A stretch of 64,000 bases of DNA, taken from the NCBI GenBank assembly GCA_020832235.1, contig JAFIEZ010000018.1, positions 310,001 through 374,000 on the forward strand, read 5' to 3'. Made by a program: the position numbers and the translations under genes. The notes under the pieces are model-generated. The model saw only the letters and a program-made list of their open reading frames with translations. It was not told where the DNA came from and made no database searches. Each line of letters starts with the position of its first letter. Within the stretch, counting starts at the first letter, position 1. This DNA is from Bacteroidota bacterium. Lineage in GTDB: Bacteria; Bacteroidota; Rhodothermia; Balneolales; HLUCCA01. Shown piece after piece: positions 10,808 to 15,168 of the stretch.

Positions 10808-11362
10808 ATGGTTTACGAATTCCTCGACAAAAAACCCCGGCTTAATGAATCGAATTTCATTGCACCCAGTGCGGACATTATCGGTGATGTAACCCTCGGC
10901 GATGAGGCCAGCGTCTGGTTTAACTGCACCATTCGGGGGGATGTAAACTGGATTGAAATTGGTGACCGCAGCAACGTGCAAGACAATTGCTGTATTCACG
11001 TGACCAATCAGACCTGTCCTACAAAGATCGGAAATGAGGTGACGATAGGTCATGGCGCCGTGATTCACGGATGCACCATTCACGACCGTGTGCTGGTAGG
11101 GATGAATGCCGTTGTGCTGGATAAGGCCGTTATCGAAAGTGATGTGATTATTGCCGCGGGCAGCCTTGTTCCTCCAGGAAAAACCATGCCTTCAGGACAC
11201 CTGTGCATGGGTTCGCCTTGTAAACCGGTTCGTAAACTCACCGATGAGGAAATCGCCTCCATCCGTCAGTACTCTCAGAATTACGTGAAATACTCACGCG
11301 CCTACCTGCGAAAAGACACATACACGAGTAATCCGTTCTATACCGATGAGCGGGGAAAATAG
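10808..11362 (+). CDS. Gamma-carbonic-anhydrase-like hexapeptide protein
   Basis: The protein has 184 residues, the usual size of the YrdA/PaaY group. It is a left-handed beta-helix of hexapeptide repeats (ADIIGDVTLGDEASVWF and onwards). The three metal-binding His of the family are at H64 (CCIHV), H82 and H87 (IGHGAVIHGC). RGDVNWIEIGDRSNVQDN matches the conserved face of the family. It could hydrate CO2 or act on a related acyl or metal substrate; many members have no measured activity. The C-terminus is a short helix, as in YrdA. Confidence 0.93.
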   Translation: MVYEFLDKKPRLNESNFIAPSADIIGDVTLGDEASVWFNCTIRGDVNWIEIGDRSNVQDNCCIHVTNQTCPTKIGNEVTIGHGAVIHGCTIHDRVLVGMNAVVLDKAVIESDVIIAAGSLVPPGKTMPSGHLCMGSPCKPVRKLTDEEIASIRQYSQNYVKYSRAYLRKDTYTSNPFYTDERGK

Positions 11363-11429
11363 ACCTTTTGTTATATCCCTAAAAGTTGGCAATTGTTTTA
11401 TTACCAAAATCCAACCTATAAGTAATAAT

Positions 11430-11960
11430 CTATAACGATTCAGCATTTCGTTTTACCCAAGTAATTGCACGTTCTTTCAATTCGCTTTGGGTATCAGTAG
11501 ACCACAGTCTATCTAAAAGAGTGTCAATATCTATCATATTTTCAATCATCAAAAGCCTGACGAACTCTGTATCCTTATCCCGAAATGCAATTAATTTACT
11601 AGCTGCTAGGTCATGAACATCTAAGCAGTGTCCTACATTTGATTGGTCCATATAGTCATGGACTTTTATGGTTCTCTCTTCCCAGCCTGTCGGGAGTATA
11701 GCCGTTTCTATAGGTACGCCGTGCACATAAAACCCATGTGTTTTGTGAAACATAGAGTTCTCACCAAGTGCACCATCTATCTTATCTACAGCATTTGGTT
11801 TGTTTTTGGGAGATGCATCTATTTCAATAGACTTTCTTAAATCCGGATGAGGCTCAGGAAACTGTGCTAATACTGACTGAGAGCCGAAAATTATGAGTTC
11901 TTTATCATCAGACACATTGCAGGCAGCTCGGATAGCGTGCTCAAGTTGTTGTCTATTCAT
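11430..11960 (-). CDS. DUF6036-like nucleotidyltransferase, second gene of a two-gene module
   Basis: The protein has 176 residues. IIFGSQSVLAQF (G26, S27) followed by SIEIDAS (E46, D48) matches the Gly-Ser and acidic-pair core of a DNA-polymerase-beta-type nucleotidyltransferase fold, with a longer insert between them than in MNT toxins. A later block (DVHDLAASKLIAFRDKD) resembles the substrate-side Lys/Arg region of this family. It overlaps the upstream winged-helix gene by 8 bases, so the pair is coupled. The base composition is clearly more AT-rich than that of the flanking genes, consistent with horizontal gain. By position (regulator first, nucleotidyltransferase second) it resembles AbiE-type toxin-antitoxin pairs. 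That role is inference. Confidence 0.75.
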   Translation of the reverse strand: MNRQQLEHAIRAACNVSDDKELIIFGSQSVLAQFPEPHPDLRKSIEIDASPKNKPNAVDKIDGALGENSMFHKTHGFYVHGVPIETAILPTGWEERTIKVHDYMDQSNVGHCLDVHDLAASKLIAFRDKDTEFVRLLMIENMIDIDTLLDRLWSTDTQSELKERAITWVKRNAESL

Positions 11961-12930
11961 TCGTCTCCAATTGAAGTTTTAAACGTTCAAATTTAGCTAT
12001 TTCCTCCTCGCGGAGCACATTCCAGAATGGCATAGACTGTCTCAATCGAACTGATTTTTCTGAATCTGACTCGATCACTTTCTTTAACCGTTGAAAAGAG
12101 CTGTTCTCTAGTAAATTTTTCCACTCCATTAGTTCTTTTTTTTCGCCTGTAGTGGTTTGGTCGATTTCTTTATTCAAAAACAAGATTGTTTTTGGAATAA
12201 TACTGGGATGTGCCCTTAACAACGCCGTCCATGCTTTAGCGTAGATATAAGACCTCTTATCAAATTGTTGATGACTGGTAATTTTTCCTGCTCTGTCTTC
12301 ATCAGTACTCATCAAATCTTTTGGCGAAATCCCCCAAAGATGTATGATTTCATTTGTGAAATAATCCGGTTTCACTTCTAAATCTGCCATTGTTAGTCCC
12401 ACCACGTCTAGCGTAAGATCGAACCTTTTCTCTATTTGATTTAGAACTATAAACTCTCTCAGTGTATTAACCACAGTATCAACAGACCGTAATTTCCCCA
12501 CCAATGCTATTTGTATGGGGTCACCATAGCTATCAGCAAATCGCGCAGCAGTACCAAATATCCACGCTGAATCAGGTTGTTCCTCTAAGGAACTGATTAT
12601 CGAACGCAATTCCCCTAAGATATTTTCAAAACGTTCGGCTTCTGCTACAAATAAATCTTTTATAACTTGAGTAAGTGGAAACTCCTTTCTGAGTTCAAGC
12701 AACTGCCCCCTTCCAACCCCAACGTGCTCTATCACACCAGTTTCTAGAAGTCTACCGGCAATGTCATATACCCCTTGTCTGGATATACTTGTTCGATCAA
12801 GTAATTCTGAATGACTGATTGGATTGCCCGACATTACCATAGCACGAATCACTTCTATATGACCTTTCGAACCTAAAATAGATGTAATAGGATGCCTTAG
12901 TGCACTGTTCTGCCTATCGGTTAATTTCAT
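11953..12930 (-). CDS. Winged-helix DNA-binding protein with degenerate nucleotidyltransferase-like domain
   Basis: The protein has 325 residues. About residues 18-85 form a winged helix: HIEVIRAMVMSGNPISHSEL, then a recognition-helix-like TSISRQGVYDIAGRLLETG and a wing with GVGRGQLLEL. Residues 118-200 look like a nucleotidyltransferase core (IFGTAARFADSYGDP), but where active enzymes have Asp-x-Asp this one has D137-P-I-Q, so it is probably inactive. The C-terminal part (200-325) is helical and charged and I do not recognise it. It is the promoter-proximal gene of the module and overlaps the next gene. The cluster of TGACA half-sites 33-90 bases upstream suggests that it represses its own operon. 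Antitoxin is the most natural guess, unproven. Confidence 0.75.
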   Translation of the reverse strand: MKLTDRQNSALRHPITSILGSKGHIEVIRAMVMSGNPISHSELLDRTSISRQGVYDIAGRLLETGVIEHVGVGRGQLLELRKEFPLTQVIKDLFVAEAERFENILGELRSIISSLEEQPDSAWIFGTAARFADSYGDPIQIALVGKLRSVDTVVNTLREFIVLNQIEKRFDLTLDVVGLTMADLEVKPDYFTNEIIHLWGISPKDLMSTDEDRAGKITSHQQFDKRSYIYAKAWTALLRAHPSIIPKTILFLNKEIDQTTTGEKKELMEWKNLLENSSFQRLKKVIESDSEKSVRLRQSMPFWNVLREEEIAKFERLKLQLETNE

Positions 12931-12962
12931 AACGGTTTACATAAATTGAAGAGTTATCTAAA

Positions 12963-13019
12963 GTCAAATATTTATGACAAAAATAAACTTTACATGACAA
13001 ATGTCAAGTAATATTGACA
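12963..13019. promoter_or_regulatory. Cluster of five TGAC/GTCA half-sites, probable operator
   Basis: Half-sites occur at 12963-12966 (GTCA), 12975-12979 (TGACA), 12995-12999 (TGACA), 13002-13006 (TGTCA) and 13015-13019 (TGACA). They form overlapping inverted repeats: TGACA-aa-TGTCA at 12995-13006 and TGTCAA-6-TTGACA at 13002-13019. They lie in the AT-rich promoter region of the minus-strand module starting at 12930. The following 13020-13200 is AT-rich and shows nothing else. Autoregulation by the winged-helix protein is inference. Confidence 0.55.
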
Positions 13020-13200
13020 ATATTCATTTAAATATCCTAACTATTCAATTCGAAAAGTCACAGCAAACTATCCAAATATCTAAGAAACAGTTTTCATATA
13101 GCCCAAACACATACACAACTTATATATAGTGCGTAGCGTCTGTACCATTTATTTATGCATGATTTGTAACAACAAAAACGAATCCCCCCCGGGAATAACC

Positions 13201-15168
13201 CTACAACACGCGCAAAAGCCAACCATCGGGATCAATTTCAAAAGGTTGGTTGTAGAGTCGGATGCGGCCCAGTCCCTCATTGATTTCAACATGGTGGATG
13301 GACTCTCCGATGCGCACCGGTACGGGCATGGTAAAATCGACATCAACCGGTGTCTTCCATTCCACCAGCAGGTGATCATCATCTACGTAGTAGAGCAACT
13401 CCGGAAGCTCGGGCTGATGCAGATACACATCAAACAGCCAGTCAAGCGACCTGCCGGTCAAACGCTCTGTCATAAGCTTGAATTCATCGGTTGAGGTAAA
13501 CCGAAGCGCCCGGCCATCGGCATATCGTTCGAGGGCAGGATCCGGATAAGCGAATCTGCGCAACAGCATGAAAAAGTCTTCATCTCCTATGAGATAGCGC
13601 AGTGTATGCAGAAAGAAGGCGCCTTTGTAGTAGATATCCCTCCCGGCGTACATATCGCGCGAGCTTTGAGGCGATCGAGGCGCCATGGGCGCGGTATTCT
13701 GCAAAAAACCGCGGAATAATCGCATCTGGCTTTGGTATAAGCGCGCGCCATGCAGCTCCTCGGTGTACAAAGCCTGCATATAGGTTGCGAATCCTTCGTG
13801 AATCCAGAAATCTTTCCAATCATGCACGGTTACGAGGTTTCCCCACCACTCGTGGGCGAGTTCATGATGGTGAAGGTCGTCATACCCGGCCCCCATCCGA
13901 AATAACACATCGTTGCGGAATCCCGCTCCGTAGGCAATCAGGGTCTGGTGTTCCATGCCAAGGTAAGAGGTCTGAACAACCCCGTATTTTTCGTTTCGGA
14001 AGGGATAAGGACCTAAAAATCGCTCAAAAAAGTTGAGCTGCTCCGAGAATTGCGGCATAAGTTCGCGGGCGCGGAGGGTGTCTTCGGGAAGCACCCAGAA
14101 GTAAATGGCCAGGCTGTCGCCGCTGGTGCTGATGTACGTTTCGCGCAGCTCCGTGTAGGGACCGGCATTTACAGTGACATTATAATTGCTGATGGGTGAG
14201 GATGAGAACCAGTGATACGTTGCGGTACCGTTGGCATTAGATGACTTGCCTTGATAGCGACCGTTGGATGCCGCAAAGAGCGGATCGGGAACCGTGATGT
14301 GAATGGCTACGGAGTCGGCCCGGTCGGAGTTATGGTCCTTCACGGGCCACCATAGGTCTGCGCCGTTGGTCTGGCACGACACCCCTATCCACGGATACCC
14401 ATCCGGAGTTTCCCGCCATGAAAATCCGCCGTCCCAGGGTGGATTAGGCGCTATGCGGGGTTTCCCGCTGTAATGCATCTGTATTACGAGTTCCTCGCCC
14501 GGCTGCCATGTTCGGGGCAGTTGCATCCACACCCGGTTGCCGCGGCGTTCCGTGCGCAGCTGCCAGCTATATTCAGGCGCAGTAATGGTAAAACTAGTAC
14601 GATTTTCGGCCGTTCGTTGCCTCCAGGAATCGTCGGGGAACACCGCTTTGTGAATGGTGAGTGTTGTGTCGAGGTCTACGACATACCAGTCGAGCGGATG
14701 CACAATGTCAACAACGGCCGTTACCACGCCTGTGACCGACTGGTCACTCGGATGCAGCGCTACATCCAAATCATAATAACGAACGTTATAGGCCGCCATT
14801 TCGGGAATCAACGGCATGCCTGAGTCCAGAATCTGGTCGTTAAGCGGACGCTGATGATGCGGGATGAATTCGGGGATTTCAATGCGGCGTACGCGGCTGG
14901 CAGCACCACTGGTGTCGGAGGATGCCGTTGCAGCCGTTGCTTCCGCACCGGTTTGCGTGGTACCCGGCTCGCGCTGTCCTGCTGAATGGGTCCCGGCAGT
15001 GACTTCGCCCGTACCATTTGAATCCATTCTGGAGTCATCAGATCCAGCTACCGATTCGCTTCGTATTTCGGCGTTTTCGGATGTATTCGCGGTATGCATC
15101 GCACCACTCGACGGTGCACATCCGCCCATGATGACGGCATAAAGCGTAATTAGTGTAAATCGACCCAT
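13201..15168 (-). CDS. M1-family zinc aminopeptidase, lipoprotein
   Basis: The protein has 655 residues. A lipobox ending MGGC (Cys17) is followed by a long Ser/Thr/Ala/Glu-rich linker (18-95), so the enzyme is tethered in the envelope on a flexible arm. The peptidase part shows the M1 motif G404-M-E-H-Q (GxMEN type), the zinc site H435-E-L-A-H439 and the third ligand E458 in [21 protein letters not shown] is characteristic of M1. A C-terminal helical ERAP-type domain is short or absent. It should cleave N-terminal residues from peptides in the periplasm or outside the cell. Its start lies 75 bases from the divergent ATG chosen at 15243. Confidence 0.95.

Follow-up and report, generated by a model that had tools for sequence, protein, structure and literature searches.

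The window analysed here is a stretch of 64,000 nucleotides of Bacteroidota DNA (contig JAFIEZ010000018.1, from a genome of the Balneolales type), in which two minus-strand genes, designated A and B, overlap by eight bases (11953-11960; Table 1). Their G+C content is 0.35-0.40, as against 0.48-0.58 in the flanks, and their neighbours on both sides are housekeeping-type genes; the segment that carries them has a gamma-carbonic-anhydrase-like gene on one side and an M1-aminopeptidase-like gene on the other. In G223, a genome of the same genus, this site is empty: the flanking genes lie ~35 bp apart, and the aligned flanks are separated by ~50 bp, compared with ~1,860 bp in the window. The A/B pair is thus an accessory insertion. 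A preliminary description of this DNA had correctly reported the two open reading frames on the minus strand, their overlap and their differing composition, and had overlooked the empty site. Relatives were found by scan in Balneolaceae, Rhodohalobacter and Fodinibius; their neighbours differ from one relative to the next, some pairs adjoining integrase-like or AbiE-like genes (judged by reading). Many of the pairs formed by a DUF6036 gene and its partner sit on plasmids. Judged from these comparisons, the A/B pair is a mobile accessory module.

Table 1. Features of the A/B locus (positions are those of the window)
Feature	Position	Strand	Description or basis
Inserted segment, approximate	11348..13210	none	Alignment with genome G223
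Gene B	11430..11960	(-)	176 aa, DUF6036 nucleotidyltransferase, likely toxin
B second motif D117-x4-K122-x7-D130	within 11430..11960	(-)	Alignment of 20 relatives
B E46-x-D48	about 11825-11817	(-)	Alignment of 20 relatives
B motif I G26-S27	about 11885-11880	(-)	Alignment of 20 relatives
Gene A	11953..12930	(-)	325 aa, likely antitoxin and autorepressor
A constant helical domain, residues about 217-310	12001..12282	(-)	HMM from plasmid partners, E 5.7e-13
A nucleotidyltransferase fold, residues 116-188	12367..12585	(-)	PADLOC PDC-M05A, 1.1e-8; hhalign 99.4%; motif, dN/dS
A winged helix, residues 14-80	12691..12891	(-)	Pfam, Foldseek; recognition helix SRQGVYD
Operator iteron 3	12961..12980	(-)	TTGTCATAAATATTTGACTT
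Operator iteron 2	12981..13000	(-)	TTGTCATGTAAAGTTTATTT
Operator iteron 1	13001..13020	(-)	TTGTCAATATTACTTGACAT

When compared with the Pfam model of DUF6036 (PF19502), B scored 44.2 bits, the gathering cut-off being 23.6. In an alignment of 20 diverse relatives from several phyla, residues G26, S27, D48, G66, E67, S69, F71, L89, P90, W93, R96, D117, K122 and D130 were invariant, S44 was nearly so, and E46 was conserved in at least 90% of the sequences. Such conservation is what a working enzyme would show, and B is accordingly predicted to be an active nucleotidyltransferase with its core intact, as the earlier assignment to a DUF6036-like enzyme retaining G26-S27, E46 and D48 had proposed. 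No solved relative of B or of A was returned by a sequence search of the PDB, and the structure model of B, built from 8 sequences, was too poor for use (pLDDT 50). B had no match of any kind in PADLOC, and AbiEii was not recognised in it by Pfam, NCBIfam or PADLOC models (hhalign, 4%). A literature search for DUF6036 or PF19502, to which subscription journals and preprints were out of reach so that an earlier description may exist, found no paper. In several plasmid-borne DUF6036 proteins the C-terminus is extended by a long and variable stretch, for a total of 250-310 aa (L079, L080, L085, L087, L089, L090). A second, classic GG..D-x-D type of DUF6036 protein was left out of the family comparison; the members checked by phmmer do not match B. 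This type occurs in genomes of the phylum with the pattern GG..AV ... T-x-D-I-D-F (L054, L059, L060, L062-L064, L066 and other PF19502 matches), and adjoins upstream ORFs of ~60-80 aa, several of which contain '..KTPEERL..L..LR.QY'; with the small ORF it looks like another candidate toxin-antitoxin pair.

Gene A opens with a winged helix, which gave a weak match to Pfam MarR_2 and matched ArsR/MarR folds by Foldseek (best E 0.018). It is followed by a nucleotidyltransferase fold that reads G-D-P-I-Q where live relatives have S-D-x-D, both aspartates being replaced. All 11 members of the family carry D-P-x-Q, D-P-x-R or D-A-x-Q at the catalytic motif, and their G-S motif is not constant at the serine either; the winged helix and the loss of Asp-x-Asp noted earlier for the window are therefore confirmed, the loss being general among these relatives. 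Mean identity over this domain is nonetheless 53%, and the dN/dS values between L015 and L016 were ~0.16 for A, ~0.09 for the dead domain and ~0.06 for B. The sequences thus portray a fold that is catalytically dead yet kept by purifying selection. As to its origin, residues 12-188 of A align with the whole wHTH-nucleotidyltransferase protein of HEPN-linked modules (hhalign 99.4%, E 5e-22; at most 0.4% with five column-shuffled profiles), and PADLOC assigns A to PDC-M05A, a component of the PDC-M05 nucleotidyltransferase and HEPN pair, itself a predicted toxin-antitoxin module (PMC12988326). Four wHTH-nucleotidyltransferase relatives from the same phylum keep S-D-L-D intact and overlap with the gene downstream; among these four downstream genes, one lies above the Pfam HEPN cut-off and the others are similar to it. 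By these profile comparisons, the first ~188 residues of A derive from the wHTH-nucleotidyltransferase antitoxin of HEPN-linked (PDC-M05-type) modules, and not from B.

The preliminary description had also overlooked the C-terminal domain of A, of ~95 residues, which has the motif W..LL ... RLRQS.PF..L and is common to the partner proteins of DUF6036. At each of 21 sampled plasmid loci (Actinomycetota and alpha-, beta- and gammaproteobacteria), the gene that immediately precedes DUF6036 also ended in this domain; the order was always partner and then DUF6036, and the genes overlapped in 20 of the 21. The W, R and P are invariant in the alignment, and L-R-Q-x-S-P-F is typical. An HMM built from the plasmid partners only matched every intact A at residues about 217-310 (E 1e-11 to 1e-15), shuffled and unrelated sequences reaching at most 4.7 bits, and the domain was present in 8 of 394 genomes of the phylum, exactly the eight with this subfamily of B. 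No Pfam, NCBIfam or PADLOC model matched it. The N-termini of the partners, in contrast, vary: they may be an XRE HTH, a homeodomain-like HTH, an AbiEi winged helix (PADLOC 1.3e-17, in a single distant partner, L079), a weak Phd/YefM match, or no head at all. Since the tail is the sole part common to all DUF6036 partners, it is most simply the part that binds B, and a constant tail combined with exchangeable DNA-binding heads is characteristic of type II-like antitoxins. In Polaromonas plasmids (L083:2525-3579, H87) the partner of DUF6036 bears a Phd/YefM antitoxin annotation, which already hints at a toxin-antitoxin function.

The neighbourhood survey that the preliminary description had called for showed the pair to be co-conserved. 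Among order-level relatives there are 11 loci at which A is intact, and in each of them the next gene downstream is B, be it whole or damaged; the same linkage of partner and DUF6036 holds at the 21 plasmid loci. Damaged copies of B next to an intact partner have a stop (L017/L030), a shortened end (L020/L033), a split frame (L074, plasmid) or the substitution S27F (L032); no damaged A beside an intact B was seen among the loci examined. That the damage falls on B fits B as the costly part, in four cases, some of them from draft or metagenome assemblies. A decayed A without B was found at L035 and L036. At the latter locus, in Fodinibius sediminis (L036:6001-7592), a remnant of the C-terminal domain of A directly precedes an AbiEi-like/AbiEii-like pair, as if replaced by it.

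Upstream of A lie three imperfect 20-bp palindromes in an exact 20-bp register, with a consensus near TTGTCAAGTTAAGTTGACAT; three of the 26 TTGTCA sites of the window fall inside 46 bp there. The five TGACA/TGTCA half-sites described earlier are indeed located upstream of A, although they consist of four exact pentamers and one TTGACt. Scanning detected iterons of 20 bp in 8 of 10 relatives as well as in the window, and reading revealed them in two more: L034, once its start codon was reset to the conserved position, and L032, which has an altered half-site. The consensus was drawn from the scanned sequences, so that counts against shuffles favour it; the register is independent of that. Half-sites of the GTCAA form pair with the recognition helices SRQG or SKQG, and GTTAA half-sites with SLPG (L021, L032); since L021 and L032 may share ancestry, this matched change of helix and half-site represents one or two independent events. 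From the conservation of the iterons and this matched change, we infer that the winged helix of A binds them and represses the operon.

The features described above are best explained, with a probability that we put at about 0.7, if A and B together are a toxin-antitoxin module, mobile and autoregulated, in which B would be the toxin and A the antitoxin. B would act as an active nucleotidyltransferase toxin, most likely adding nucleotides to RNA such as tRNA; with a profile match to AbiEii of just 4%, it is the analogy with AbiEii and MenT that suggests this target. Residues about 217-310 of A, the domain common to all partners, would keep B inactive, while the winged helix, seated on the three iterons, would shut down the operon. 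A itself would have arisen when a HEPN-linked wHTH-nucleotidyltransferase antitoxin became fused to a DUF6036-binding domain; with the HEPN partner gone, its catalytic residues would have been lost, and the middle fold may persist as a pseudoenzyme with a structural, dimerising or ligand-binding part to play. It is conceivable, if quite unlikely, that the dead fold still recognises its ancestral target, whether HEPN toxin or nucleotide, and thereby releases or holds B, in which case a single antitoxin would link toxin-antitoxin systems of two kinds or respond to the nucleotide state. The toxin-antitoxin reading defines a testable family, which databases show only as a 'DUF6036 nucleotidyltransferase' next to a 'hypothetical protein' or 'HTH regulator', and whose members are frequent on the plasmids of soil bacteria. 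It puts a name to a probable toxin-neutralising domain that can be searched for by itself, and it would make A an antitoxin in which the regulator from one type of toxin-antitoxin system has been joined to a blocking tail from a second type, an old enzyme being conserved as a pseudoenzyme.

The preliminary description had proposed a toxin-antitoxin or defence unit. Comparison lends good support to the toxin-antitoxin logic with autoregulation (the genes are co-conserved, overlapping and mobile, the antitoxin modular and the operator conserved), and none to the defence role: B is absent from the phage records searched, and viral contigs searched with A and with B yielded no relatives. Nor does the pair resemble an anti-phage defence system in family or setting, B having no PADLOC match and the pair being set, in the window, between housekeeping-type genes.

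Three other readings were weighed. The nucleotidyltransferase fold is common among drug-modifying enzymes, and pairs of an HTH protein and an enzyme may be ordinary regulated enzymes; B might then modify an antibiotic, a metabolite or another small molecule, and A would be a repressor whose dead fold binds the effector, as the layout of operator and repressor would allow. We consider this unlikely, since the tail is kept with very different heads and even in headless partners, a pattern that suggests binding to B in addition to gene control, and in view of the near-constant overlap and the toxin-antitoxin-rich plasmid settings. A reversal of roles, as in type VII HEPN/MNT systems, with the helical tail of A as the toxin and B as an antitoxin that nucleotidylates this tail, appears less likely still. 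The nucleotidyltransferase of B is intact, relatives of A do occur in HEPN/MNT modules and the conserved tail is helical; however, the tail lacks the HEPN R-x4-6-H motif and is joined to DNA-binding heads, an antitoxin trait, the antitoxin of HEPN/MNT modules is the wHTH-nucleotidyltransferase protein, that is, the kin of the front of A, and four loci combine an intact A with a broken or mutated B, where a toxic A should kill the cell. The earlier suggestion that the fold in A is a dead copy of the toxin, imitating B or capping its active site, is hardly credible: A and B both have nucleotidyltransferase folds and purifying selection acts on the dead domain, but A and B show no sequence or profile relation (0.1% for the dead domain against B), the front of A comes from a wHTH-nucleotidyltransferase antitoxin, and the domain is absent from all 21 other partners, which would need some other means of blocking the same enzyme.

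The proposed toxin-antitoxin pair can be set beside several known systems. Like AbiE and MenAT, it has the DNA-binding antitoxin first and the nucleotidyltransferase toxin second, in overlapping genes behind a palindromic operator. The likeness to AbiE noted earlier thus extends to the way of working and not to the proteins: B belongs to DUF6036 and not to AbiEii (DUF1814), A is not AbiEi, and no family model covers its C-terminal domain. Membership of AbiE/MenAT was rejected, as B gave no AbiEii match and A matched only a weak MarR_2 and PDC-M05A. A serine or threonine before D-x-D is common in nucleotidyltransferases. The alignment of S44-x-E46-x-D48 of B with T39-x-D41-x-D43 of MenT1, in which T39 is the residue phosphorylated when the antitoxin binds (PMC11375011), is for that reason only a lead. 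Xress-MNTss of Streptococcus suis, an autoregulated system with an XRE antitoxin and a nucleotidyltransferase reported as the toxin (PMC8406773), resembles by its description the XRE-headed DUF6036 pairs on plasmids; that system, however, is described as periplasmic and its toxin as kanamycin-nucleotidyltransferase-like, whereas A begins with a winged helix. Type II systems combine a constant toxin-binding part with exchangeable DNA-binding parts in autoregulated, mobile two-gene cassettes (PMC2701414). A and B share with them two co-oriented, overlapping, co-conserved genes and a DNA-binding part separate from a constant, candidate toxin-binding part, and differ from the usual type II in having a nucleotidyltransferase toxin of an unstudied family and an antitoxin with a whole pseudoenzyme domain. 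With PDC-M05 (wHTH-MNT and HEPN) the pair shares the complete wHTH-nucleotidyltransferase part and the arrangement in two overlapping genes, while it differs in having no HEPN gene, in the lost catalytic aspartates and extra C-terminal domain of A, and in the DUF6036 partner. In rhizobial megaplasmids (L040:3983-4979, L041, L042), wHTH-nucleotidyltransferase genes with an intact S-D-V-D were found, some copies being truncated or frame-broken; the ORF downstream of the one at L040, which had no Pfam HEPN match, looked HEPN-like by eye.
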